DNA from: Halobacteriales archaeon SW_9_67_24
GTDB lineage: Archaea > Halobacteriota > Halobacteria > Halobacteriales > Halococcaceae
Assembly (NCBI GenBank): GCA_003022685.1
Contig: PXSV01000080.1
Span: 1-32,044 of the forward strand
Reading direction: 5' to 3'
DNA length: 32,044 nt
Below are positions 2,564-27,201 of this stretch, piece by piece. The first letter of the stretch is position 1, and each line of letters opens with the position of its first letter. Position numbers and translations under genes: made by a program. A model generated the notes under the pieces. The model searched no databases. It was not told the DNA's origin and was given only the letters and a program-made list of their open reading frames with translations.

Positions 2564-3745
2564 TCGTGGTCGGCAAGGTCGTCGGCGCGCGGGAACCACG
2601 CGAGATCGTGGTCGGCGGTCAGGTCGACGGTGACGAACGTGTCGAGATCGATCCGCGCGGCGTGGTTGTGCATGCACTCGACCACGCCACCGTCGTCGAG
2701 CTCCACCCGGTAGAGAACTGTGGGCCCGAGATACCGCCGGTAGACAACGCGGCCGTCGGCGCTCGCCTCGGGCGCGGGCTGGGCGAACACGTCGTCCGGG
2801 CGAACCAAAATGTCGATCTCGGTGCCGTCGTACGCCGCGGTCAGCCCGTGGATGCGCTCGCGCGCGAGGCGGCCGAGCGGCGTTTCGACCGCATCGCCCG
2901 TCACCGACCCAGCGAGAAAGCTCGCGTGGCCCAGAAAGCCGCGACGAACCGCGATTCGGGCTGCTGGAACACTCGCTCGGGCGTACCGACCTGCTCGATC
3001 GACCCCTCGCTCATTACCGCGACCCGATCCGAGATCGAGAACGCCTCCTCCTGGTCGTGGGTCACCGAGACCGCGGTGACGCCCGCCTCGTGGATGATCC
3101 GGCGGGCCTCCTCGCGCATCTCGACCCGGAGATCGACATCGAGGTTCGAGAAGGGTTCGTCGAGCAGCAAAATGGAGGGCTCGGGCGCGAGCGAGCGCGC
3201 GAGCGCGACCCGCTGGCGCTGGCCGCCGGAGAGCTGGTCGGGCTTTTTGTCGCGGTGTCCTTCGAGACCGACGAGTCCGAGCATCTCATCGATGCGGTCC
3301 GGGTCTCCGTCGTCGAGACCGAACCCGACGTTCTCCCCGACGGTCATGTGCGGAAAGAGTGCGAACTCCTGGAAGACGAGTCCGACGTCGCGGTCCTCGG
3401 GTTCGACGACGTTTCCGTCGCCGGCGACCGACTCGCCCGCTATGCGTACCTCTCGCCGTCGAGCACCGACAGCGAGAGATGGTCGAGAACGGTCTCGCTC
3501 CCGTACTGCTTCGCGAGCCCGTCGAGTTCGAGCACCGTCTCGGGCGCGGCGGCCGGCTCGGTGGTGGTCGGTGCGCCGGCGGTGGCGTTGGTGTGCCCGT
3601 CGGCTCCGGACTCGTTCGATGTGGGTTCTCTGGATTCCCATTCGCCGGAGCGAGGGCTGTCGGTCGGGTCCGCTCGTTCCGCCGATCCGACGCTATCGGT
3701 CGTCCGGGGCGAGCGCGATCGGTCGGTGAGGTCGCTATCTCCCAT
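2560..3745 (-). pseudogene. ABC transporter ATP-binding protein (iron/FbpC-PotA-like), disrupted: Walker A region absent and a 3' frameshift before the TOBE domain
   Basis: Fragments in three frames: 3440-3745 (N-terminal VLELDGLAKQYGSETVLDHLSLSVLDGE), 2901-about 3452 (EVRIAGESVAGDG...VGLVFQEFALFPHMTVGENV...LSGGQRQRVALARSLAPEPSILLLDEPFSNLD...VTHDQEEA) and 2560-about 2940 (FLGHASFLAGSVTGDAVETPLG... TOBE). No GPSGCGKS/T motif between the first two. Confidence 0.8.
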
Positions 3746-5342
3746 CGTATCCCTCCTGTGAGAGCAGCACGAGCATCGAGAGCCCGGAGACGAGCACGAG
3801 GACGAGCGCGGGTACAGCCGCCTGGCCGAAGTATCCGGCGCTTTCGGCCTGCCAGACTCTGGTCACCAAGGTCTCGAATCCGGTCGGGCGGAGCAGCAGC
3901 GTCGCCGGCAGCTCCTTCATCGTGGTCAGAAAGACCAGCGCCGCGCCCGCGAGCAGGCCGGGCGCGATCAGCGGGAGTGTCACCCGACGGAACGACTTCA
4001 GGGGGCCGTCGCCGAGCGTGCGCGCCGCGCCGGGGAGCCGGTCGTCGACCCGGCCGAACGCGGCTCGAGTCGAGCCGATCGCTTGGGGAAGAAAGCGGAC
4101 GACGTAGGCGAACACCAACAGCGGAAGGGTCTGGTAGACGGCGGGGAGATATCGTGAACCGAAGAAGACGAGCGCGAGCCCGAGCACGACGCCAGGCATC
4201 GCGTAGCCGACGTAGGTCGCGCGCTCGAACAGGGCGGCGACCCGCGATCGGTGAAACGCCGCGAGGTACGCGATCGGGAGACAGCACGCCGCCGCGACCG
4301 CTGCCGTCGCACCCGCGGCCACGACCGAGTTGATCACGGTGTCGAGTTCGAGCGCCCCCGCACCCGCCTCGCTTCTGACCAACCAGCCCACGAGCACGCC
4401 GATCGGGACCGCGAGCCCAAGCAGGCTGACGCCGGCGGGAAGTGCGAGCGCGGGCCAGCGCCACCGGCCGAGCCGCACGGTCGAGGTGCGCCGCGACCCA
4501 CCACCGGAGGCCGACCGGGACCGGACCCGGGATTCGAGCGCGAGGATCACCAGCGTGATCGCCACCAACTGAAGCGAGAGCACGGCGGCGAGGTCGCGCC
4601 CGAACGCGTTGAGCTCGACGTAGATCACCCGCGTCAGGACGTCGACGCCCATGATCGACGGCGTCCCGAAATCCGAGAGTGCGTAGAGCGCGACCAGCAG
4701 CGCGCCCGCGGCGATCGCGGGTCCGATCTGCGGAAGCGTCACCCGGCGGAACGCCTTCCAGCGCGAATCGCCGAGGGTGCGGGCGGCGTCCACCAATCGA
4801 GTATCCATCGTCTTCAGCGCCGCCCGCGTCGCGATGAACACGTACGGATAGGTGTACAGCGTGAGCACGAACACGACGCCGAGGAAGCCCTCGACCGCGG
4901 GCAGCCACCCGATCCCGAACGTCCGTGCGAGAATGCCGTTCGCGCCGAACGCCGAGACGAACGCGAACGCGCCGATGTAGCTCGGGATCACGAGCGGCAA
5001 CGAGATCGCGACGGTCCAGAACCGGCGGAACGGGAGGTCGGTCCGGGTAGTGAGGAAGGCGAGCGGCACGGCGAGGCCGATCGAGAGTCCCGTGACCGCG
5101 ACGACCATCGCCGCGCTGTTGAGGAGGACCTCGATCGTCCCTGGCCGCGTCAGGAGGGCGAGCGCGTCAGGGCCGACGTCGACGACGGCGAGGAGCACCC
5201 AGAGCAGCGGCGTGAGGACGGCGGCCGCGATCGCCCCCGCGAGCACGACGAGTTCGAGCGGGCCGCGGTCGTCGCTGTCGCTCGTGGTGTCGTCGCTCGT
5301 CGACGGTCGGTCGCTTCGCGATACTTCCGTGTTCGTGGCCAT
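3735..5342 (-). CDS. ABC transporter permease, fused two-domain (Fe3+/FbpB-type)
   Basis: 535 aa, about 12 hydrophobic segments, two EAA-type loops (LGDSRWKAFRRVTLPQIGPAIAAG and LGDGPLKSFRRVTLPLIAPGLLAG); adjacent to SBP and ATPase. Confidence 0.88.
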   Translation of the reverse strand: MATNTEVSRSDRPSTSDDTTSDSDDRGPLELVVLAGAIAAAVLTPLLWVLLAVVDVGPDALALLTRPGTIEVLLNSAAMVVAVTGLSIGLAVPLAFLTTRTDLPFRRFWTVAISLPLVIPSYIGAFAFVSAFGANGILARTFGIGWLPAVEGFLGVVFVLTLYTYPYVFIATRAALKTMDTRLVDAARTLGDSRWKAFRRVTLPQIGPAIAAGALLVALYALSDFGTPSIMGVDVLTRVIYVELNAFGRDLAAVLSLQLVAITLVILALESRVRSRSASGGGSRRTSTVRLGRWRWPALALPAGVSLLGLAVPIGVLVGWLVRSEAGAGALELDTVINSVVAAGATAAVAAACCLPIAYLAAFHRSRVAALFERATYVGYAMPGVVLGLALVFFGSRYLPAVYQTLPLLVFAYVVRFLPQAIGSTRAAFGRVDDRLPGAARTLGDGPLKSFRRVTLPLIAPGLLAGAALVFLTTMKELPATLLLRPTGFETLVTRVWQAESAGYFGQAAVPALVLVLVSGLSMLVLLSQEGYDGR

Positions 5343-5343
5343 C

Positions 5344-6636
5344 TCAGACGTCGAGTCCCACCTCGCGCATCAGTTCGATCGTCGGTTCGAGGTTCGATAG
5401 CTGGGTGAGGTCGAGATCCCCGGGCGGGTTCAGGTCGTCGATCCGCGGGAGTGCGCCGATCGGCGCGACCGCCGGCACGAGGGGATACTCCTTCGTGGTG
5501 CGCGCGAAGTAGTCCTGGGCCTCCGACGAGAGGAGGTGCCGGACGAAGTTCGCGGCGAGTTCGGCGTTCCCCGCCGTGTCGAGGACGGTCGCACCGGCGA
5601 CGTTGAAGACCGAGCCGGCGTCGTTCTGGGTGAACGCGGTCGACAGCGGCGCGTCGGTCCGGGCGGCGAGAACGCGCTGGATGTAGTAGTGGTTGGTGAA
5701 CCCGGCCTCGATCTCGCCGTCGGCGACCGCTTGGGCGATCAGGAACTCGTCGGAGTACGACTCGATGCCCAGATCCTGCATCCCCTGAAGCCACTGTTTT
5801 GCCTGCTCCTCGCCATTGAGAACGCGCATCGCGGTGACGAACGCCTGGAACGAGCCGTACGTCGGGGCCCACCCCATCACGCCCTCGAACTTCGATTGTT
5901 CCGGGAACGCGAAGATGTCCGTCGGGATGTCGCTGCTGTCGAACGCGTTGGTGTTGTAGGGAATCGAGCGCGCGCGCCCCGAGATCCCGGTCCAGTTGCC
6001 CTCGGGATCGCGGAACTGCTGTGGAACCTTCGAAAGGACGTTTTGGGGCAGTTCCTGGGTCCGGCCCTCCTCGGTGAGCAGGCCGAGCGAGCCGGCGTTG
6101 ACCGAGAAGAAGACGTCGGCGGGGCTGCTCTGTCCTTCGGTCAGGACCTGGTTCGCGAGCTCGGTCGATCCCTGATACCGCATTTCGAGGGTGAAGTCCG
6201 GATAGAGGTCCCGGATGTACTCCATGAGTTCGCCGACGAGCGCCTCGCCCCGGCCCGAGTAGATCTGGAGGGTGCCGCTCAGCGCCGGCATTGCGGCCAT
6301 CGAGGTGCCGCCGAGCGCCGCGGGGTCGCGCGACCCGGAGCCGACGAACTCCGCGCTGCCGTTGCCGTCGCTCGCGTTCGCCGTGGTGGCGTCCGCCGTG
6401 CCGTTCGTTCCGTTGCCGCTCGTGGTTGCCGCCGGTGTCGACCCGTCCGTCGTACTGGTCGTGTTGTCGTCACTCCCGTCTTCGGTGTCGCCCCCGCCGC
6501 CCTGGCAGCCCGCAAGCGCTGCGACGCCCGCGATGGGGACAGTTCGCAGAAAGCGCCGGCGAGCGACGCTCGCCGAACGGTTCCCTCGGTCGCTGTCCTC
6601 CGCCTCGGCCGAATCGCCCGTGTTCCGTTGCGTCAT
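5344..6636 (-). CDS. Extracellular iron-type solute-binding lipoprotein (FbpA/FutA-like)
   Basis: Twin-Arg/lipobox N-terminus RRRFLRTVPIAGVAALAGCQGG; LQIYSGRGEALVGELMEYIRDLYPDFTLEMRYQGSTELANQVLTEG...ADVFFSVNAGSLGLL is FbpA/FutA-like; directly upstream of the permease. Confidence 0.87.
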   Translation of the reverse strand: MTQRNTGDSAEAEDSDRGNRSASVARRRFLRTVPIAGVAALAGCQGGGGDTEDGSDDNTTSTTDGSTPAATTSGNGTNGTADATTANASDGNGSAEFVGSGSRDPAALGGTSMAAMPALSGTLQIYSGRGEALVGELMEYIRDLYPDFTLEMRYQGSTELANQVLTEGQSSPADVFFSVNAGSLGLLTEEGRTQELPQNVLSKVPQQFRDPEGNWTGISGRARSIPYNTNAFDSSDIPTDIFAFPEQSKFEGVMGWAPTYGSFQAFVTAMRVLNGEEQAKQWLQGMQDLGIESYSDEFLIAQAVADGEIEAGFTNHYYIQRVLAARTDAPLSTAFTQNDAGSVFNVAGATVLDTAGNAELAANFVRHLLSSEAQDYFARTTKEYPLVPAVAPIGALPRIDDLNPPGDLDLTQLSNLEPTIELMREVGLDV

Positions 6637-6648
6637 TGTCCCACCATA

Positions 6649-6666
6649 TTTTAGGCAGCCCTAAAA
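6649..6666. promoter_or_regulatory. Palindromic operator, DtxR-family-like iron box (TTTTAGG-CAGC-CCTAAAA), upstream of the SBP operon
   Basis: Perfect 7-bp arms with 4-nt spacer, 13-30 nt upstream of the SBP ATG at 6636. Confidence 0.75.
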
Positions 6667-6693
6667 GACCTGTCGTTCCGCGGTCGTCGTGGG

Positions 6694-7860
6694 TCAGTCA
6701 TCGGCGCGCGCGGCGGCCGGGGTCGCGACGTCGTCCGACCCGAGCGCCGCGAGGCAGTCGAGCCAGTCGTGCATGTGCTCGCCGACGTACGTGAGAAAGT
6801 CGCCGTTCTCGTAGTCGTCCCACTCGCCCGCGACGAGCGCGTCGGCCATCGCGGCGTACGCCTCGGCGTAGCCCTCGGCACCTTCGGCGGCGTCGTCGAC
6901 GATCGTCCAGAGGTGTTCGTTGGCTTCGAGCGCCGGGAGTTCCGAACGGAGGTCGTCGAACGTCGAGCGCGGGGCCTTGTGGTGTTCGCACAGCGGCCCT
7001 CCATTAATGATCTGCGTGCCGAGCACGTCGCAGGCGCGCTTCAAGAACACGCCGCTCCAGATGTCGTCGAACCGGCCCACGTCCCACGGGTTGTCGTCCA
7101 TCGGGAGCTGGTAGAACGCGGGCACGACCTCGCGCCGGAAGGCGAGGTTCATCGAGCACACGGTCAGAAACTGGCCCTCGCCCGCGACGAAGTCCTCGCC
7201 GTAGTCCGCGCGCGACAGGCGGGTTTCGGACTGTCCTCGGAGATCGCCGTCGGCGAGGATGCGTGCCGCGTCGAGGTCGGGGACGTGCGTCCAGAGGCCT
7301 TGGGAAGCAACCACGTTGTCGACGTGTGTCTCGTCGGTCTCGATCGTCTCGTCCATCGCGGAGTAGGGATACCCCCGGGGGTAGAGACCGTGCTCGTCGG
7401 CGTTCTGATGCAGGACGTTCACCCACTGCTCGTCCGAGCGGACCGATTCGATCCCGCCCTCGTACGCGAGGTTCGCGAGGTGAGTACCGAAGAAGTCGTC
7501 TTCGGGGTCGGGTCGGGTGTCGTCGTCGATGAAGACCCCGTACTCGAACTCGTTGGCCCAGAGGTAGAGCAGCCCGAAACTGGTCTCGGCGTGACTCGCC
7601 GCCGGCACCAGGTGCGAGAACTCCGCGATCCCCTGCTCGGCGTACCACTCCTCGCGGGCGGTCCCGTCGAAGATTTCTCCCGTGAGATCGAGGTCGTCGA
7701 GCATCGACGCCATCGCGTCGGTTGCACAGAAGTCCTCGGTGACGAGCACGGCGTGGAGTCGGTCGATGTCGAACCCGTGTTCGTGGGCGTTCTCGACGTA
7801 CGAGCGCAGACACTCGTACTCGCGGATCGTCGGCACGATAACGCAGATGTCGGCGGTCAT
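6694..7860 (-). CDS. Reversibly glycosylated polypeptide / alpha-1,4-glucan-protein synthase-like glycosyltransferase
   Basis: MTADICVIVPTIREYECLRSYVENA...GVFIDDDTRPDPEDDFFGTHLANL...NLAFRREVVPAFYQLPMDDNPWDVGRFDDIWSGVFLKRACDVLG...GGPLCEHHKAPRS: RGP/UDP-arabinopyranose-mutase-like features including a DDD nucleotide-sugar motif. Confidence 0.78.
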   Translation of the reverse strand: MTADICVIVPTIREYECLRSYVENAHEHGFDIDRLHAVLVTEDFCATDAMASMLDDLDLTGEIFDGTAREEWYAEQGIAEFSHLVPAASHAETSFGLLYLWANEFEYGVFIDDDTRPDPEDDFFGTHLANLAYEGGIESVRSDEQWVNVLHQNADEHGLYPRGYPYSAMDETIETDETHVDNVVASQGLWTHVPDLDAARILADGDLRGQSETRLSRADYGEDFVAGEGQFLTVCSMNLAFRREVVPAFYQLPMDDNPWDVGRFDDIWSGVFLKRACDVLGTQIINGGPLCEHHKAPRSTFDDLRSELPALEANEHLWTIVDDAAEGAEGYAEAYAAMADALVAGEWDDYENGDFLTYVGEHMHDWLDCLAALGSDDVATPAAARADD

Positions 7861-7938: not shown

Positions 7939-8018
7939 ATAGGGTCGGTTGGAAGTCCGTCCGGGATCGACCGCAGGCGCGTGCGGTCGCACCGGTAACC
8001 GCTTCCAACCGACCCTAT
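7939..8018. repeat. 17-bp perfect inverted repeat with a nested inner hairpin
   Basis: ATAGGGTCGGTTGGAAG (7939-7955) and CTTCCAACCGACCCTAT (8002-8018); the loop contains a smaller inverted repeat GACCGCA...TGCGGTC. Confidence 0.9.
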
Positions 8019-8147: not shown

Positions 8148-9659
8148 CTATTCGGCGTCGGTCGCGTCGTCCGCGTCGTTCTCGCCGGGAAGATCGACGG
8201 TGAGGGTGTGGGTACCCGACTCGAAGGTTCGGGTTTCGCTGTCGGCGAACTCCTGGAACGCTTCGGTCTCGGGACTCCAGCCCGGGCCGACCTTCTCGTA
8301 GCTCGCGAGCGTCAGGGTGATCGACTCGCCCTCGGCGACGGCGAACGTCGTGGTCGCAGTACCGTTTGCGACCTCGATGGCCTGGCTTTCGATCCGATCG
8401 GCCAACAGGTGGTCGGTGGTGAACTCGCCGTCGGAACGTCGCGTGATCGGCTCGTCGGTGCTGCCGTGGGCGAAGCGGAGCAGTTGGTCGCTGGTGTAGG
8501 TGCCGTTCGGTCCGCGGAGGTCCTCGATCGGCTCGCCGGCCACGAGGTCCACCTGGTAGTACGTCACGCCCGCTTCCCCGAGGAAGCCGAGCGCGTCGCG
8601 TTCCGCGTCCGTGAGTCGACCGTCGCTCAGCGCGTCGCCGAGTGCTCGCAACTGCTCGTCGCTGAGGCCGCCGGCCGCGACGATGTCGGCAACCGATTCC
8701 CGCTGTTCGTCCGTCAGGTCGTCGCCGGCGAGCGCGTCCGTGATCGCAGTGACTTCCGCGTCGGTGAGATCGCTCGCGCCGAGCGCCGAACCGACGTTCT
8801 CGACCTCGTCCTCGGAGAGCCCGCTATCGGACAACGAGTCGGCGATGGCGGACTCGTTGAGCGTTCGCTCGCCCCCGTCGGTCGTGGTCGTCTCCGTCCC
8901 GGTTCCGGTCGTGGTGTCGGTGGTCCCCGTTTCCGTCTCGTTCGCAGTATCGGTCGTTTCCGTCTCAGATTCGGTCGTGGTGTCGGTGGTTTCCGTTTCG
9001 CTTGTCGTGCCGGTGGTCTCCGTTCCCGTCTCGGCCGTGGTCTCGCTCGGCGTCGTCGTGGTCTCCGTTTCGGTCGGCGTCTGTGTGGCGGTCGTGGTGT
9101 CGGTCGCGGTCGTGGCCGTCGTCTCGGCGGTCGTGGTTTGGCCGCCGACGGTGAGGGACGCCCCGTCGGTCCCGGTTACGTCGTACACGTCGCCCGCGGC
9201 GTCGCTGATCTCGGTTACGTCGAGCGAGAGACCGCTCGATCCTGCTTCGGAGCCCCGGACCGTGACCGTCGCGATCGTGACGCCGTCGGGGTCGTCGGAC
9301 AGTGCGTTCCCGAAGTAGATGGCGTCGAAGGCGACGCTGGAGCCGTCGTCGGCGATCGTGACGTTCCGGTTCGCTGGGTCGCCCGTGATCGCGAGATCGG
9401 TGATCGTGCCGACCGACGGATCGTCAAGCGCGACGGCTGCGTCGATCGTGCCGATCCCGTTGTCGGTGTTCTCGACGACGACTTCGTAGGTCGTCGTCCT
9501 GCCGGGGTCAACCTGCTGTTCGCTTGGCGAGAGCGAAACGGTGGTGCTGCCGGCCGCGCTGGCGGTGAACGTCACGGCCGAACCGGCCGAGACGAGCACG
9601 AGGGCGGCGAGTGCGAGGCTGAGAACCGATCGGCGTCGTGTGTCGAGGAGTTTCGTCAT
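8148..9659 (-). CDS. Secreted protein: cohesin-like N-terminal domain, Thr-rich linker, five 17-aa tandem repeats, C-terminal beta domain
   Basis: Signal peptide (SVLSLALAALVLVSAGSAVTFTASAAG), then TTVSLSPSEQQVDPGRTTTYEVVVENTDNGIGTIDAAVALDDPS...VTIATVTVRGSEAGSSGLSLDVTEISDAAGDVYDVTGTDGASLTV (cohesin-like pattern), then a T/E-rich linker. Confidence 0.75.
   Translation of the reverse strand: MTKLLDTRRRSVLSLALAALVLVSAGSAVTFTASAAGSTTVSLSPSEQQVDPGRTTTYEVVVENTDNGIGTIDAAVALDDPSVGTITDLAITGDPANRNVTIADDGSSVAFDAIYFGNALSDDPDGVTIATVTVRGSEAGSSGLSLDVTEISDAAGDVYDVTGTDGASLTVGGQTTTAETTATTATDTTTATQTPTETETTTTPSETTAETGTETTGTTSETETTDTTTESETETTDTANETETGTTDTTTGTGTETTTTDGGERTLNESAIADSLSDSGLSEDEVENVGSALGASDLTDAEVTAITDALAGDDLTDEQRESVADIVAAGGLSDEQLRALGDALSDGRLTDAERDALGFLGEAGVTYYQVDLVAGEPIEDLRGPNGTYTSDQLLRFAHGSTDEPITRRSDGEFTTDHLLADRIESQAIEVANGTATTTFAVAEGESITLTLASYEKVGPGWSPETEAFQEFADSETRTFESGTHTLTVDLPGENDADDATDAE
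8571..8825 (-). repeat. Five in-register 17-residue protein repeats (255 nt)
   Basis: SGLSEDEVENVGSALGA / SDLTDAEVTAITDALAG / DDLTDEQRESVADIVAA / GGLSDEQLRALGDALSD / GRLTDAERDALGFLGEA. Confidence 0.85.
8880..9140 (-). repeat. Low-complexity Thr/Glu linker coding repeat (degenerate ETTDTTT units)
   Basis: Translation TTTAETTATTATDTTTATQTPTETETTTTPSETTAETGTETTGTTSETETTDTTTESETETTDTANETETGTTDTTTGTGTETTTTDGG. Confidence 0.8.
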
Positions 9660-9677
9660 GATGGCGTTGGGTTTCGA

Positions 9678-12173
9678 TCAGTTGGTGTTCGACCACTCGG
9701 CGTAGAGCGCCTGGGCGTCGGCCTGGGTTACGCTACTGTCGCCGTTGAAGTCGAACGCGTCGACGTTGTTCTGGACTACTGCACTATCGAGGTTGTCGTA
9801 GAGCGCCTGGGCGTCGGCTTCGGTCAGGCTGCCGTCGCCGTCGCCGTCCTCGTACAGCCCATCGTCATCGACGTCCGAGGGCGGGTTCTCGGCGTCGCCG
9901 GTCGGCTCGATGCCGGTGTCGGTTCCGTTTTCGACCACGGTTTCATCGGGCTGGTTCACGTCGCCGTCCTCGCGCGTGGTGTCCTCGCCGACGACCGCGT
10001 TGGCGTCGACCGATCCCCCGACCGCGTTGGTCGAGGCGTTCGCCTGTGGCTCGAATCGCACCGAGACGACCGTCGTGTTGTTCGTCAGGCCGACGTTCTG
10101 CGCGTCGGTCTCGACGCCCTCGGCGTCGTAAAAGTTGAACCCGCTTGTGTCGCCGATCTCCGAGAGGCTCTCGTCGAACGCGAACAGGAGTTCGTTCTCG
10201 CTCCCCGACGTCACCGACACGAGGCCGGGGTTCGCCGAGTTGCCACCGTTCGAGACGTCGGCGGCTTGCTTCGGGTTGGTCGGCGGACTCTGGGTGTCGA
10301 CTTTCGCGACCGTCCCGCTATCGACGAACCCGCGAGCGACGACCGACTCGTTCACCTTCTCGTCGAACGCGACCGTGACCGTTTCGGTGCCATCGCCCGC
10401 GACGACCTCACCCTGGCCGTCGAACAGCTGGTTCTCGAAGTTCCGGCTGTCGACCGGCACGAGCTGGAAGTTGCCCGCGTCCCCGACCAGATCGACCGGC
10501 TGATCGAAGGTGAAGTTGACGAACGTCTGCTGGCCGCCCTGTGAGGCGAGGTTGCCGGTACAGAATCCGCTGATCGCGCCGAGGTCGGGCGCGGCGGTCG
10601 GTCCGGAGTCGTTCGCCACCGTGGCGTTTCCGCACTCGACCGTTCGATCGCCGGTGAGTTCGGCCTCGTCGGGCTGGTTCACGTCGCCGTCCGCACGGCC
10701 GGTGTCCGCGCCGACGACCGCGTTCGCGTCGACCGATCCTCCGACCGCCTCGCTCACCGGCGAGTTGTCCGGCTCGAACGCCACCGAGAGCACCGTCGGA
10801 TCGTCGGTCATGGCGACCTCCTGGGCGGCCGTCTCGGTGCCGGTCGCGTCGTAGTATCGGAACCCGCTCGTGTCGCCGATTTCGGAGACGTTCTCGTCGA
10901 ACTCGAACAGGAGCGCGTTGTCCGGCGCGTCGCTCTCGGTGACGCTCACGAGGTCGGGGTTGGCGGTGTTGCCGTCGTTGTTGAGATCGACCGCCTGTTT
11001 GGGGTTGAGCGTTTCGTCGCCCTCGCCCGCCGTCTGGACGGTGTTCGGGTCGACGAACCCGCGAGCGATCGTGTCGGGATCGATCCGGCCGTCGAAGGGG
11101 ACCGTGAGCGAGGTGGTTTGGTTCGTCTCGCCCACGATCTCGTTGTTGCCGTCGAACGTGCCGTTGCCGTCGATCGGGATCAGCTGGAAGTTGCCCGCAC
11201 CGCCCTGGAGGTTCACCTCCTCGTCGAAGTCGAACTCCACGAGCGTCTGGCAGTTCTGCCCCTCGGGGTTCTGCCGGTAGGTGACGTTGTCGATGTCCAC
11301 GAGGTCGGGGGCCTGCGTCGGGCCGCCGGCCTCACCACCGTCACCGTTGTCCGCAGTGCCGTTCCCGCCGCACTTGCTGAAGGTGGGCCCCGACTCGCCG
11401 ACCGTCTGCACCCCGTCGAGGGAGTTCGTTCGATTACCGTCGCTCGCGTTCGAGACCGTCCCCTCGGTGACCGACGCCCCGACGGCTTGCGAGGCGTTGA
11501 GGCCGTCGAACGTGACCTTCACGAGCGTCGGTTTCGCGAGCGATCCCGTTGCCACGTTGCCGGTTCTCAGTGTCGTGTTCGTGTAGTACGCCTGGAACCC
11601 GCTGTCACTGTTGACCGTGACGGGGTCGTCGAACACATAGATCAGCGCGTCGCCGGTCTCGTTCTTCGTGACGCTCACCAAATCAGGGTCGTCGGAGTTG
11701 CCGTCGTTCGAGACGGCGGCCGCCTGCAGCGGGTTGTTCGTCTCGTCGCCCTCGCCCGTCACGCGGACCGTGTTCGCCTTGACGACGCCGCGAGCGATGT
11801 CGCTCCGGGTTACCGGCTCGTCGAACGCGACCGTGATCGTCTTCGTTCCCTCCCCCGCGGTGACGTTCACGCCACCGATATCCGTGCCACCGTCGGTCGG
11901 AACGAGCTTGAAGTTCCCGCCCGAACTCACGAGCGTCGCGTTCTCGTCGAACGTGAAGTCGACGAGCACCGCGCCTTCGCTGCTCAAATCGTTCTCCCGG
12001 AAATTATCGACCGACTGGAGGTCAGCCGCTTGCGTCGGGCCGCTCGCCTGGCCGGCGACTCCGCCGGCGAGCGCGCCCAGCCCGACGACGGCCGAACCGA
12101 TCACCACCGTCACGAGAACGATTCCTGTCAGGTATTTCGCCTTCCGATCGAGTTGCATTTCATATCCGAACAC
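9678..12173 (-). CDS. Secreted repeat protein with C-terminal dockerin type I-like domain
   Basis: N-terminal signal/TM (KAKYLTGIVLVTVVIGSAVVGLGALAGGVAGQA), three repeats of about 230 aa, and the C-terminal pair EDGDGDGSLTEADAQALYDNL / FDFNGDSSVTQADAQALYAEW (dockerin Ca-binding duplicated loops). Confidence 0.82.
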   Translation of the reverse strand: MFGYEMQLDRKAKYLTGIVLVTVVIGSAVVGLGALAGGVAGQASGPTQAADLQSVDNFRENDLSSEGAVLVDFTFDENATLVSSGGNFKLVPTDGGTDIGGVNVTAGEGTKTITVAFDEPVTRSDIARGVVKANTVRVTGEGDETNNPLQAAAVSNDGNSDDPDLVSVTKNETGDALIYVFDDPVTVNSDSGFQAYYTNTTLRTGNVATGSLAKPTLVKVTFDGLNASQAVGASVTEGTVSNASDGNRTNSLDGVQTVGESGPTFSKCGGNGTADNGDGGEAGGPTQAPDLVDIDNVTYRQNPEGQNCQTLVEFDFDEEVNLQGGAGNFQLIPIDGNGTFDGNNEIVGETNQTTSLTVPFDGRIDPDTIARGFVDPNTVQTAGEGDETLNPKQAVDLNNDGNTANPDLVSVTESDAPDNALLFEFDENVSEIGDTSGFRYYDATGTETAAQEVAMTDDPTVLSVAFEPDNSPVSEAVGGSVDANAVVGADTGRADGDVNQPDEAELTGDRTVECGNATVANDSGPTAAPDLGAISGFCTGNLASQGGQQTFVNFTFDQPVDLVGDAGNFQLVPVDSRNFENQLFDGQGEVVAGDGTETVTVAFDEKVNESVVARGFVDSGTVAKVDTQSPPTNPKQAADVSNGGNSANPGLVSVTSGSENELLFAFDESLSEIGDTSGFNFYDAEGVETDAQNVGLTNNTTVVSVRFEPQANASTNAVGGSVDANAVVGEDTTREDGDVNQPDETVVENGTDTGIEPTGDAENPPSDVDDDGLYEDGDGDGSLTEADAQALYDNLDSAVVQNNVDAFDFNGDSSVTQADAQALYAEWSNTN
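9915..12040 (-). repeat. Three tandem protein repeats of about 230-240 aa within the dockerin protein
   Basis: Each begins GPT(Q/A)A(A/P)DL and shares GNF(K/Q)L(V/I)P, (I/V)ARG(V/F)V, A(A/V)(A/D)(V/L)(S/N)N(D/G)GN, LVSVT motifs. Approximate boundaries 12040-11340, 11326-10625, 10606-9915. Confidence 0.8.
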
Positions 12174-21774: not shown

Positions 21775-22813
21775 ATGGTGCTTGGTGGTCTCCTTCCAAA
21801 CACGCCGGTGGTGAACGTCGCCGTGATTCTCGTCGCTACCGGCTTTATTTGGTTCGGGAGCGGGTGGCTCGAAGGATCCGCCGAGCAACTTTCGGCATAC
21901 TACGGCTTGCCGGCGGTCGTCCAGGGATCGATCGTCGTCGCGGTCGGCTCCAGTTTTCCCGAGCTTTCGAGCGTCACGTTCACTGCACTCGCCGGTTCGT
22001 TCGACATGGGTGTCGGAGCGATCGTTGGCTCTGCGGTGTTCAACGTGCTCGTGATCCCGGGACTCTCAGGGATCACGACGGACGACGATCTCGAAACCAG
22101 CCGAGCGATCGTCTACAAGGAGGCACAGTTCTATATGATTGCCGTCTCTGCGCTGGTAATCACGTTCGCCCTCGCAGTCATCCTACGTCCCGGTAGCCGA
22201 CGGTTCGACGCTCACCGGCCAAATCACGCGCCTGCTCGCGACGATTCCACTCCTGCTGTACGGGCTCTATCTCTTCATTCAGTGGCAGGACGTCGGGGAC
22301 CACGAGGCCGAGGACGTCAGTGAGGGGATCGCGGTGGGCCGTGAATGGGGGAAGCTCGCGGTCGGGCTCATCGTCATTCTCGTGGCAGTCGAACAACTGG
22401 TGGGTGGCGTCGAATCGCTCAGCCACACGTTCGGGATTCCGGAGTTCCTCGCTGGCGTGACGATCATCGCGGCGGCGACGAGCCTCCCGGATAAGCTGGT
22501 GAGCGTGCGCTCGGCTCGCGCCGGCAAGAGGGCCACCAGTCTCGGCAACGTCTTCGGATCGAACACATTCGACCTGCTCGTGGCAATCCCAGTGGGGGTG
22601 CTCATCGTCGGCAGCGTCCCCGTCGACTTCGCGGTGGCCATCCCGATGTTCGGCGTCCTCACGCTCGCGACCGTCCTGCTATTCACCATTCTGCGTACTG
22701 ATCTATCGCTTACCGGCGTCGAATCGTACGGTCTTCTCGCCGCATATCTCCTGTTCGTCGCCTGGGTGATCGCCGAGACCGTCGGTGTGACACAGCTGAT
22801 CCAGGGGGGCTGA
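21775..22813 (+). pseudogene. CaCA family cation antiporter (Ca2+/Na+ exchanger-like), frameshifted in the middle
   Basis: First half (MVLGGLLPNTPVVNVAVIL...VAVGSSFPELSSVTFTALAGSFDMGVGAIVGSAVFNVLVI) and second half (DGSTLTGQITRLLATIPLLLYGLYLFIQWQDVG...GVTIIAAATSLPDKLVSVRSARAGKRATSLGNVFGSNTFDLLVAIP) lie in different frames; switch near 22180-22205. Confidence 0.78.
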
Positions 22814-22957
22814 TCACGCCGACGCCCTGGGTGCGTGCCGCATCGAACTCCCGGAAGTCGACCGTAGGCCCCATCTTCCTGGGAACTAAAGTCGGTCAAA
22901 CATATCCACCTTCTGTCGAGCGATTCGAGCGTATCCAATACGGATGGGTAACACCCC

Positions 22958-23449
22958 TCAACTGTCGAGAGATTGTGAACTATCTTCTTGATTGAGAAAA
23001 CCGTGAAACGGGCAAACGAACTCTTCGCGGATGAGCTGCTCATCGGCGATTTTCAGTCCGATTCCGTCGAGTTCTTCGCTGATTCGATTGAGGTCATCGT
23101 GATCCGCCCCGATGGCGTTCACGTACACGTTCCGTTCACCGGTCATTATCTCCCGAACGGCCGTAACCCCGCGTACGTCACGGGCCCGGCTTGCGGTGTC
23201 AGCCCGTTCTGGAATGGATGCTGTGCAAATGATTTTCGTATAGAGCGGGTAGCCCGCGAGATCGTAGTCGATATCGATGTGGTACCCACGAATGATACCG
23301 CTCTCTTCGAGTTTGTTGATACGGGTTCGTACGGTACTCGGCGAGAGATCGAGCTTCTCCGCAATGTCGCTGGACGAGGTTCTTCGGGCGTCCTGCCGAA
23401 GATAGTAGAGAATGTGTTTGTCTACTGAATCCAATTCGCCGTTTTTCAT
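22958..23449 (-). CDS. Lrp/AsnC family transcriptional regulator
   Basis: MKNGELDSVDKHILYYLRQDARRTSSSDIAEKLDLSPSTVRTRINKLEESGIIRGYHIDIDYDLAG (Lrp HTH) plus RAM-like C-terminus; start at 23449 preferred because a palindrome lies just upstream. Confidence 0.85.
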   Translation of the reverse strand: MKNGELDSVDKHILYYLRQDARRTSSSDIAEKLDLSPSTVRTRINKLEESGIIRGYHIDIDYDLAGYPLYTKIICTASIPERADTASRARDVRGVTAVREIMTGERNVYVNAIGADHDDLNRISEELDGIGLKIADEQLIREEFVCPFHGFLNQEDSSQSLDS

Positions 23450-23462
23450 CTGTAACGTACTA

Positions 23463-23483
23463 TAATACTCCGTGCGAGTATTA
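23463..23483. promoter_or_regulatory. Palindrome TAATACTC-CGTGC-GAGTATTA upstream of the Lrp gene
   Basis: Perfect 8-bp arms with 5-nt spacer, 14-34 nt upstream of the ATG at 23449. Confidence 0.7.
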
Positions 23484-23591
23484 GTCTTGTTTCTCTCGAC
23501 CATCAGCACCGACCAGTCAGGGGATGACGAGAGGGGAGTCGAGATGTTCGCCAGTCGCTTGATGACGGATGAAGACTGACACGATTAATTG

Positions 23592-23608
23592 TTTGACGAT
23601 CCGTCAAA
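23592..23608. promoter_or_regulatory. Palindrome TTTGACG-ATC-CGTCAAA in the divergent intergenic region
   Basis: Perfect 7-bp arms with 3-nt spacer, about 90 nt upstream of the TrkA-N gene. Confidence 0.65.
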
Positions 23609-23699
23609 GAAATCCGCTAGTTTAAGCACTTCCGTTACCAACACAGCGGCACAGGCACTCAGTCGTAACGAGCCCTCATTTGACACCAAATCCACCATC

Positions 23700-24122
23700 A
23701 TGACGTCGAACCAAACCGTTGTAGACGAGCGACCGACGGAGTGTGAACGGAGCGAGTACTACGTCCTGGGTGGCAGACACCTCGGTTCTGCTGTCGCTCA
23801 CCGTCTCCGCGCGGACGGCCCCCCCGTCTGTATCGTGGACGAGTCTTACGATCAGTCCGAAACGTCCGGATTCCGCGGTGATCCAACGGATATCCGAACC
23901 CTCGAAGAAGCCGGCGTCGCGACCGCATCGACGGTCGTCGTGGCCACGGCGTCGGACAGCCGCAACTTGCTCATCGCACAGCTCGTTCGAGCCTACTTCG
24001 ACGAGATAACCATCATCGTGTTGACCAACGTTCCGGACCGCCTCGAGTTGTTCACGGAGGCGGGTCACGACCCGGTTTCCGCGACGTCCGCCCTGTCGGA
24101 CGCGATCATGGATGCGATATGA
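23700..24122 (+). CDS. TrkA-N domain NAD-binding protein
   Basis: EYYVLGGRHLGSAVAHRLRADGPPVCIVDESY...GDPTDIRTLEEAGVATASTVVVATASDSRNLLIAQLVR: Rossmann/TrkA-N pattern; ATG at 23700. Confidence 0.8.
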   Translation: MTSNQTVVDERPTECERSEYYVLGGRHLGSAVAHRLRADGPPVCIVDESYDQSETSGFRGDPTDIRTLEEAGVATASTVVVATASDSRNLLIAQLVRAYFDEITIIVLTNVPDRLELFTEAGHDPVSATSALSDAIMDAI

Positions 24123-26239
24123 AAGAGCTAGAACGCGACCTCGGGCTGCCGTCCGTCCTCGCGATCAGTATCGGGGCCATGATCGGGAGTGGGATATTCA
24201 TCCTGCCAGCGCTCGCGCTCGAGATCGCCGGGCCGGCAGTGATACTCGCGTATCTGATCGCCGGGCTCCTCGTGGTGCCGGCCGCCCTCTCGAAGTCGGA
24301 GATGGCGACCGCGATGCCCGAGGCCGGCGGGACCTACATCTACATCGAGCGGGGAATGGGTCCGTTGCTCGGCACCATCGCCGGCGTCGGAACGTGGTTC
24401 TCGCTTTCGTTCAAAGGCGCACTCGCGCTCGTGGGTGGGGTTCCGTACCTCCTCTTGCTGTTCGATCTTCCACTCAAGCCGGTTGCTCTCGGGCTCGCTG
24501 CGGTGCTGATACTCATCAATATCGTCGGCGCGAAGCAGACGGGGCGGCTACAGGTCGCGATCGTCGTCGTCATGTTGGCTGCCCTCGGTTGGTTCACCGC
24601 TGGGAGCGCACCCAACGTCCAGTCGGGCAACTATATCGGCTTCTTCGATACCGGGGTCGGTGGACTCCTTGCTGCAACCGGCTTGGTGTTCGTCTCGTAC
24701 GCTGGCGTCACGAAGGTTGCGAGCGTGGCCGAAGAGGTCGAAGATCCGGGTCGCAACATTCCGCTCGGCATCCTCGGTTCGCTCGCGTTCACGACACTCC
24801 TGTACGTGGCTATCGTGGCGGTATTGGTCGGAGTAACGGAACCAGGAAGCGTCGCCGGATCGCTGACGCCGGTAGCGGTCGCCGCAGAATCGACGCTCGG
24901 CCGGATCGGTGTCATCGCGGTCATTCTCGCAGCCATCCTCGCGCTCGTTTCGACGGCCAATGCGGGCATCCTCTCCTCGTCTCGTTACCCGTTTGCCATG
25001 AGCCGGGACGATCTCGCGCCACCGTCTCTCTCGTCGATAAGCGATCGCTTCGGGACCCCCGTGACCTCGATCACGCTCACCGGGGCCGTGCTGTTGGTAC
25101 TCATCGCGTTCGTCCCGATCCTCGAAATCGCGAAGCTCGCCAGCGCGTTCCAGATCCTCGTGTTCGGACTCATCAATCTGGCCGTAGTCGCCTTCCGTGA
25201 GGGCAGCAAAGAGTACGAACCGGAGTTCACCTCGCCACTATACCCGTGGATCCAGGGGTTCGGTGCCATCACGAGCGCACTCTTGCTCACACAGATGGGA
25301 ACTGTTGCACTCATCGGAGCAGCCGTCATCATTCTCGGGAGTATCGGCTGGTATGTCATGTATGTTCGACCGCGGGTCAACCGCGAAGGGGTGGCGACGG
25401 ATGCGGTTCGGCGACGAGTGGGAAGAACACTGGTCACGGAAACGGAATCCGCAATAGACGACGGACCCCGCGAGGTTCTCGTCGCACTCACGAAGGACAT
25501 CGGTGAGCAACGCGAACGATCACTGATTGCCATTGCGGCCGATCTGATCCGCTCGGATGGTGGCAGTGTCGTGGTCGTTCGGTTTCAGGAAGTCCCCGAC
25601 CAAGCCCCGCTCACCGAGGACATAGCAGTACAGTCATCGTCCGATGTTTCGTTCGAAACCCGAATCAAAGCGTTTTCGACGGAGTTGGATGTCGACATCG
25701 AAGCCGACGAGATCGTCAGCCACGATACGAAACACGCAGTCGTCAACTTCGCGGACGCTCGGGGGGTAGGCACGATCATCACCGAAAACGAGCCGCTTCG
25801 GGTCCGATCCCAACTGCTCGGCTACGACCATCCAGACCGCGTCGTTCTTTCCGGGAAGGGTGGATCGTACTCACCGTTATCGGTGAACGTCGCCGAGGCC
25901 ATTACTGTCGCAAACCAGGGAGAGCTCACGCTTTGGACGCCCGCTGATCGCGAGGGGGCCGACCAGTACAATCGCACGCTCGACGACTATCGGGCTGAAA
26001 TCACGGAGATGCTCTCCGTTCCGGTGCATGCTGAATCGATTCGGGCCGACGGTGGGAGTCGGTCGGACTCCGACGTGGTAGTGTACCGCGGAACTACCGA
26101 ACGAGTTCGGAGCACCGTATTCGGTACTCGTCCGATCATCCCGAGTACAGGTTGTACGACGATCGCGGTGTATCCCCACGAATCACGGCGGCCGCGATTC
26201 GTGCGTCGGCTGCTCGAGCAGATCACGTATGGATTCTAA
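24119..26239 (+). CDS. APC family amino acid permease fused to C-terminal UspA-like domain(s)
   Basis: MKELERDLGLPSVLAISIGAMIGSGIFILPALALEIAGPAVILAYLIAGLLVVPAALSKSEMATAMPEAGGTYIYIERGMG plus cytoplasmic USP-like tail; ATGA overlap with the TrkA-N gene. Confidence 0.87.
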   Translation: MKELERDLGLPSVLAISIGAMIGSGIFILPALALEIAGPAVILAYLIAGLLVVPAALSKSEMATAMPEAGGTYIYIERGMGPLLGTIAGVGTWFSLSFKGALALVGGVPYLLLLFDLPLKPVALGLAAVLILINIVGAKQTGRLQVAIVVVMLAALGWFTAGSAPNVQSGNYIGFFDTGVGGLLAATGLVFVSYAGVTKVASVAEEVEDPGRNIPLGILGSLAFTTLLYVAIVAVLVGVTEPGSVAGSLTPVAVAAESTLGRIGVIAVILAAILALVSTANAGILSSSRYPFAMSRDDLAPPSLSSISDRFGTPVTSITLTGAVLLVLIAFVPILEIAKLASAFQILVFGLINLAVVAFREGSKEYEPEFTSPLYPWIQGFGAITSALLLTQMGTVALIGAAVIILGSIGWYVMYVRPRVNREGVATDAVRRRVGRTLVTETESAIDDGPREVLVALTKDIGEQRERSLIAIAADLIRSDGGSVVVVRFQEVPDQAPLTEDIAVQSSSDVSFETRIKAFSTELDVDIEADEIVSHDTKHAVVNFADARGVGTIITENEPLRVRSQLLGYDHPDRVVLSGKGGSYSPLSVNVAEAITVANQGELTLWTPADREGADQYNRTLDDYRAEITEMLSVPVHAESIRADGGSRSDSDVVVYRGTTERVRSTVFGTRPIIPSTGCTTIAVYPHESRRPRFVRRLLEQITYGF

Positions 26240-26399
26240 TAGTGATATAAAAGAACAATCAGCCGGCTACTTAGGGGGAAAGCTATTCGTTCGTCTATCC
26301 TCATAGTCTAACATTCACAGACGGCCGTACATAATAGACCCAGCTAACCGATCTCAGGCAGTTTATAAAAAGAGATCGAATCGGCGCTATCGCCAGGTC

Positions 26400-26957
26400 T
26401 CAGTGGGTCGCTTCTTCGAGCACGAGGGTGTCGTCTTCGAGGTAGTGTTCGAGGTGGTGGGCGTACTCCTCGTAGTCGGCGATCGCTCCCCGAAAGACTT
26501 CCTCGGAGGTGTAGTCGCCGAGGTTGTTCGTGAGCTCGATGTGATCGCGCATCCGCTGGATGATGTCGCTGAACATCACCATATCGTTGTAGAGCGACGT
26601 TCGGACGTCGTAGACGTCCTCGCCCTCGAACTCCACGTAACTGTGCTCGGCGAGGTTCACGGGGCCGGCGACCGGGACGCCTCCGAGCGCCTGGGCGCGC
26701 TCGGCGATCACGTCCGAGTGGTGCTCGACGGCCTCGTAGGCCTCTTCGAGGAAGCGGTGAACTTCGAGGAACTCCGCGCCCTCGACGTTCCAGTGGTGTT
26801 TCTTGAGCTGGTGGTACAGCACGTACGACGACGCGAGGTCGGCGTTCAGCGCGTCGATGATCTGCTCGGCCCGCTCGCCCTCGATCCGGAGCGCCGGCGA
26901 TTCCTCGACGGTCCCGAACTCCTGGCGGAGTCGTGCGTCGGATTCCTGGCTGCTCAT
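26400..26957 (-). CDS. dpsA: Dps family DNA protection / ferritin-like protein
   Basis: ALNADLASSYVLYHQLKKHHWNVEGAEFLEVHRFLEEAYEAVEHHSDVIAERAQALGGVPVA...HHLEHYLEDDTLV; closely resembles halobacterial DpsA. ATG at 26957 or 26993. Confidence 0.9.
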   Translation of the reverse strand: MSSQESDARLRQEFGTVEESPALRIEGERAEQIIDALNADLASSYVLYHQLKKHHWNVEGAEFLEVHRFLEEAYEAVEHHSDVIAERAQALGGVPVAGPVNLAEHSYVEFEGEDVYDVRTSLYNDMVMFSDIIQRMRDHIELTNNLGDYTSEEVFRGAIADYEEYAHHLEHYLEDDTLVLEEATH

Positions 26958-27201
26958 TGCATCCTCAGCTACGGCCCCCGTCCACTTAGTCATTGCTATC
27001 AAGAAAAATCGCTTTCGGGTAGCCAAAACAAAGTTCGCGCTTTCCCGGTCCGATCGGTCGGCGCTCGACGGCCGCCGGCGATGCGGTGAGCACGACCCGT
27101 ATCGGGTCGCGGAACAGGCTGCCGGGGGTGACAAACTTTAACATACTTCGGCCCGTTCGTTCGAGTGTCGAGTGAAAACGACGGCAGCAACCCAGACAAC
27201 A

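Follow-up and report, generated by a model that had tools for sequence, protein, structure and literature searches.

The window analysed here, a stretch of 32,044 nucleotides from contig PXSV01000080.1 of Halobacteriales archaeon SW_9_67_24, raises the question of whether two neighbouring genes encode the two halves of one extracellular complex: gene A, an exported repeat protein ending in a dockerin, and gene B, a secreted protein starting with a cohesin-like domain. A sequence-only reading of this DNA had placed the second gene 18 nt downstream of the first on the same strand, which the open reading frames bear out. The features considered are listed below by window position.

9678..12173, minus strand: gene A, repeat protein with a dockerin, exported; 831 aa counted from a GTG start (ORF listing)
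12045..12158, minus strand: gene A, N-terminal hydrophobic segment, putative export signal (from sequence)
9879..12041 (approximate bounds), minus strand: gene A, three tandem Ig-like repeats of ~245 aa (repeat alignment; LRR_adjacent)
9705..9854, minus strand: gene A, type I dockerin with two Ca-binding F-hands, class I (PF00404)
9660..9677, minus strand: 18-nt gap between A and B, co-transcription presumed (median gap at dockerin-to-cohesin junctions in relatives, 42 nt, n=68)
8148..9659, minus strand: gene B, secreted, putative cohesin receptor protein, 503 aa (ORF; adjacent orthologue in 9 genomes and G033)
9552..9659, minus strand: gene B, putative signal peptide, MTKLLDTRRRSVLSLALAALVLVSAGSAVTFTASAA (from sequence)
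9147..9551, minus strand: gene B, cohesin domain, class I, aa 37-172 (family profile, hhalign, PDB profile matches)
8874..9140, minus strand: gene B, Thr-rich spacer (sequence)
8586..8867, minus strand: gene B, predicted helical segment (sequence; sub-threshold match to the Glycos_trans_3N helical bundle)
8187..8561, minus strand: gene B, uncharacterised C-terminal domain A4, at the position taken by a membrane anchor in other terminal cohesin proteins (profile search)
6694-7860: RGP-like glycosyltransferase-type protein, downstream of B
5344-6636: solute-binding protein, downstream of B
3735-5342: ABC permease, downstream of B

The downstream trio (3735-7860) is kept beside the A-B pair in three relatives (G002, G003, and G008). 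Just downstream of B, at 7939-8018, lies a near-palindrome of ~80 bp with 40-nt arms that are 78% complementary and with ends ATAGGGTCGGTTGGAAG. Copies occur in at least 40 places in the same genome, mostly at 88-99% identity, and none was found in 20 relatives, nine of them of the same genus; we class it as a dispersed palindromic element specific to the species, resembling a MITE or REP. Elsewhere in the window, G+C falls to 0.555-0.63 around 22-27 kb (22001-27000), against 0.65-0.73 in the rest, in a stretch that includes an amino-acid permease gene (24119-26239) and is possibly acquired DNA.

The first in-frame ATG of gene A is at 12158, five codons past the GTG, and orthologues of the gene at 64-82% identity are present in six genomes (G002, G003, G006, G007, G008, and G010). 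The terminal duplicated dockerin motif ascribed to the 831-aa product is present as described: the Ca-binding motifs DGDGDGSLTEADAQALYDNL and DFNGDSSVTQADAQALYAEW lie in two F-hand repeats of ~22 residues with the Ca-coordinating residues at positions 1, 3, 5, and 12, and with Q at position 14. The Dockerin_1 model scored 21.5 bits against the whole protein, under the cut-off of 22.9, and 27.5 bits, above the cut-off, at 9705-9854 in the genome search (PF00404); the orthologues mostly scored 32-40 bits, with 21.6 for L065. The Ig-like LRR_adjacent model scored 24.9 bits in gene A, and among the orthologues it rose to as much as 37.5 bits. No glycoside hydrolase (GH) or carbohydrate-binding module (CBM) domain was detected by Pfam in A or B. 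A carries a single dockerin and lacks any cohesin, and B carries a single cohesin; the roles of docked cargo or stalk for A and of receptor for B therefore fit better than that of a large repeat scaffold, proposed earlier for A.

The cohesin-like domain at the start of B also proved real, and its position had to be corrected: it spans 9147-9551 instead of 9460-9630, an interval largely taken up by the signal peptide and the initial strands. The domain's own sequence had no Pfam match, and a single-sequence PDB search with it did not recognise a cohesin. The Pfam cohesin search of the whole genome (72% complete) was likewise empty, which shows how insensitive the Pfam model is in this case. Profile comparison, which the sequence-only reading had put forward as a check, aligned the window family to Pfam cohesins over the full length: with ~120 window-family domains against 29 Pfam-recognised haloarchaeal cohesins, hhalign gave a probability of 96.6 and E 5.7e-10 over 114 columns, while the controls (NEW3, CARDB, PKD, shuffled, and reversed) reached at most 2.8, with the caveat of a local match, at 45, between NEW3 and the Pfam cohesins themselves. 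In the PDB, the top six matches of a 23-sequence profile were cohesins (four NagJ, 2jh2/2ozn, and two scaffoldin) and the top two of a 61-sequence profile were scaffoldin cohesins over the full length, in both cases at a marginal E of about 0.04; the scaffoldin entries among the best matches were 5m2o/5aoz. Seven of the 61 family members matched Pfam Cohesin (PF00963) directly. Single-sequence AlphaFold models, run without an alignment, were too weak for use (pLDDT 42 for the B cohesin and 58 for the A dockerin).

The family profile is found in 128 of the 301 genomes of the order and strongly tracks dockerins, so the B cohesin is more than a chance resemblance. At the level of family membership, the B domain is thus classified as a cohesin by homology; it may have the nine-stranded jelly-roll fold, the profile matches in the PDB being for the most part cohesins, at an E of about 0.04. 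This family is largely missed by the standard domain databases.

The survey of other haloarchaea, also suggested in the sequence-only reading, showed that adjacency is retained. The A-B pair is side by side in nine relatives (G002-G010) and in a member of another family (G033), over about five neighbourhoods and with three unrelated A bodies: the triple Ig-like repeat (in the window's own genome, G000, and in G002, where it is shortened, G003, G006, G007, G008, and G010), a protein of YCF48-like repeats that appears to have a Tat signal (G004, G005, and G009), and a pair of NEW3 domains together with a cohesin (G033). A single dockerin and a single cohesin per genome, next to each other, were detected in G000 (72% complete), G004, G006, G007, G008, and G009, and no genome of the genus yielded a Pfam cohesin. 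G005 holds eight dockerins and four cohesins. This close relative carries a second system (L217-L218, G005:C1:144000-180158), in which an adaptor made of three cohesins and a dockerin is surrounded by six dockerin proteins whose second hands are class II.

Across the 301 genomes of the order, dockerins are present in 130 and Pfam cohesins in 119. Dockerin presence is associated with the window-type family with an odds ratio of 13 (p 2e-23), against 2.4 for Pfam cohesins, and the window-type family is found in 47 of the 63 haloarchaeal genomes that have dockerins without any Pfam cohesin; the alignment used for the genome search (A3) left out the plasmid loci. Among loci hand-picked from cohesin matches, which biases the percentages, a dockerin gene adjoins a cohesin gene in 35 of 38 distinct cases (L149-L167 and L170-L188), six of the 35 being divergent. 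The usual order is that of the window, with a dockerin ending the first gene and a cohesin starting the second, and plasmid operons are found in Haloarcula sp. JP-L23, Halobellus sp. DFY28, and Halarchaeum sp. CBA1220. It had been noted that the operon contains no recognisable enzyme; this holds for A and B, but not for the equivalent operons elsewhere, where the cargo includes PhoX phosphatases, nuclease-like proteins, subtilases, and cellulases (GH5/GH9/GH12).

The comparison among relatives also revealed a natural replacement at the predicted interface. Between G004 and G009, the A body is 88.7% identical and the first F-hand 91.5%, whereas the second F-hand is 28.6% and the cohesin 30.4%; the spacer (84.7%) and the B C-terminus (96.9%) are again similar. 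In the DNA alignment, an identity of 90-97% gives way to 22-48% over ~600 bp only, and returns to 99% at the cohesin end, the replaced cassette containing exactly the second dockerin hand and the cohesin. G005 and G009 share both parts (95% for the second hand and 75% for the cohesin). Both incoming parts, the second hand (GRIDYDDIV) and the cohesin (GVSGYDL...), are of a second class and are paired elsewhere too; G004 is class I in both parts and G009 class II. The replacement shows that the interface moves as one block spanning the junction of the two genes. The replaced halves are contiguous, so a single recombination could carry both without selection for matching.

The dockerin class equals the cohesin class in 39 of 39 operons (22 class I and 17 class II; Fisher 2e-11, uncorrected for phylogeny, with class motifs picked after inspecting the sequences). 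The Mantel correlation with the cohesin, also uncorrected for phylogeny, is higher for the second hand (r = 0.80) than for the first (0.62). Internal cohesins were of no use as a negative control for coevolution, since their correlation with the dockerin was as good as that of the terminal cohesins.

Could the two genes be simple neighbours, the A dockerin being an independent tail for substrate binding or for stabilisation by Ca, and B an unrelated protein with an Ig-like domain? The literature does describe haloarchaeal enzyme dockerins as substrate-binding modules (PMC10963439, PMC13260240), and Pfam alone would leave B with no cohesin. We consider this improbable given the homology of the B domain to cohesins, the adjacency kept over the different neighbourhoods, the co-replacement of the cohesin with the second F-hand, and the genome-wide co-occurrence. 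A comparably small chance is assigned to the idea that both modules are real and have their partners elsewhere, with A docking on another cohesin or B receiving other dockerins. Multi-gene operons in which several cohesins and dockerins follow one another (L103, L158, and L160) make pairing ambiguous, and G005 has several modules of each type; against it stand the six genomes with one detected module of each type, although one of them is 72% complete, and the lack of Pfam cohesins throughout the genus. The earlier proposal of a secreted non-cellulosomal pair is well supported by family evidence, adjacency, co-occurrence, and co-replacement.

Where B resides is less firmly indicated. B could be soluble and secreted, giving a free extracellular complex or a link between cells or to extracellular material, in line with the absence of a C-terminal membrane helix from the B proteins of the window's genus and with A4 being only a putative anchor. 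We regard this as the less likely course, because in other families the equivalent terminal proteins carry C-terminal membrane anchors (a hydrophobic helix closes 34 of the 51 terminal single-cohesin proteins, several with PGF-like motifs) and because a protein of G253 (L158) has A4 at the same place and in the same operon position as B.

The A4 domain, which has no match in Pfam or NCBIfam, is present in 20 of the 301 genomes of the order and in 9 of the 10 genomes of the genus, where up to six copies per genome occur in many exported Thr-rich proteins; it is also scattered in other haloarchaea, with up to 14 copies in G242. In a plasmid collection, B had six matches, of which the only one bearing A4 was from Halococcus dombrowskii (55%), and A had no match. 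The Halococcus match points to that genus or a near relative as the probable source of the window. We had considered A4 as a genus-specific cell-wall anchor, an idea weakened by its occurrence in other families and in mid-protein positions. Since A4 lies mid-protein in other exported proteins of the genus and is missing from the B homologue of G010, the proposal that A4 may retain B at the surface is a guess, to which we give somewhat less than even odds.

Our preferred reading is that A and B form a Ca-dependent extracellular cohesin-dockerin pair in which B is a surface receptor and A is held at the surface, with a probability of roughly three in four. It builds on the domain identities, their order and conservation, the co-occurrence, and the joint replacement of the interface halves demonstrated above. 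Both proteins would be exported, and the N-terminal cohesin of B would bind the C-terminal dockerin of A in a Ca-dependent manner, the second F-hand being the main determinant of specificity. B would then be retained at the surface: other families probably achieve this through a C-terminal transmembrane helix, which often bears a PGF-like motif; in the window's genus the Thr-rich spacer, the helical segment, and A4 stand in place of the helix. In this way A, a stalk of three Ig-like repeats, would be surface-held, probably as an adhesin or a surface-layer component.

The window pair is one use of what may be a general display system. We lean slightly towards the view that haloarchaea commonly display proteins by docking them onto an anchored cohesin of the family that domain libraries mostly miss, which would be the partner of most orphan dockerins; the system would include cellulosome-like clusters, and the placing of dockerin and cohesin on either side of the gene junction would make its specificity swappable as a ~600-bp cassette. 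One cellulosome-like cluster (L165, G045:C1:843000-862000) encodes a protein with seven window-type cohesins and a dockerin, together with an anchored single-cohesin protein and dockerin proteins carrying GH5, GH9, and GH12 domains. At another locus (L168, G261:C1:76000-95000), a 2087-aa protein with 14 cohesins of the Pfam-recognised type and a PGF-like C-terminal anchor neighbours subtilase proteins with cohesins and a dockerin.

If the family is the partner of the dockerins, many exported haloarchaeal proteins, phosphatases, proteases, and cellulases among them, are probably displayed on receptors at the surface, and cellulosome-like complexes of haloarchaea become open to direct testing. 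The natural cassette replacement would supply orthogonal salt-tolerant pairs ready for use, and would allow one to ask whether a single F-hand determines specificity. A full-text survey of haloarchaeal cellulose use mentions neither dockerin nor cohesin; judged against the open-access literature, the haloarchaeal cohesin family is provisionally new.

The pair shares with the clostridial cellulosome the dockerin on the cargo, the cohesin on a surface-held receptor, and the type I F-hand dockerin. It differs in having one cohesin and one dockerin, the only ones detected in its own genome (72% complete), and in lacking carbohydrate-binding module, glycoside hydrolase, and SLH domains, so that it does not qualify as a cellulosome. 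The cohesin-like module of Clostridium perfringens NagJ, among the best PDB profile matches, is also non-cellulosomal, but it is bacterial and sits on a secreted glycoside hydrolase, and its similarity to the window family is sub-threshold (E 0.04). The dockerin and cohesin proteins of ANME are, like A and B, archaeal, extracellular, and non-cellulosomal, with diverse cargo; they belong to another lineage and include scaffoldin-like proteins with up to five cohesins, and the excerpted parts of that account describe no two-gene receptor/cargo unit (PMC9012536). The same excerpts report that archaea were said to lack large multi-cohesin scaffoldins, a statement credited there to Peer 2009, and that ANME examples were then added; by their predicted domain content, L165 and L168 are further exceptions.

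The closest likeness is with AF2375 and AF2376 of Archaeoglobus fulgidus, whose dockerin (aa 432-506) and cohesin (aa 29-162) are reported to bind strongly and specifically (PMC9705933, with reference to Voronov-Goldman 2011 and Haimovitz 2008). For the window pair, the class agreement in 39 of 39 operons and the cassette replacement lend such binding indirect support. When the layouts are compared by published description, both systems have adjacent genes, a C-terminal dockerin, an N-terminal cohesin, secretion of both products, and a non-cellulosomal nature. The window pair differs in the Pfam-unrecognised family of its cohesin, in the three Ig-like repeats of A, in the Thr-rich spacer and A4 domain of B, and in the natural cassette replacement seen in its relatives. 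By analogy, the mechanism proposed for A and B would resemble that of the AF2375/AF2376 pair.
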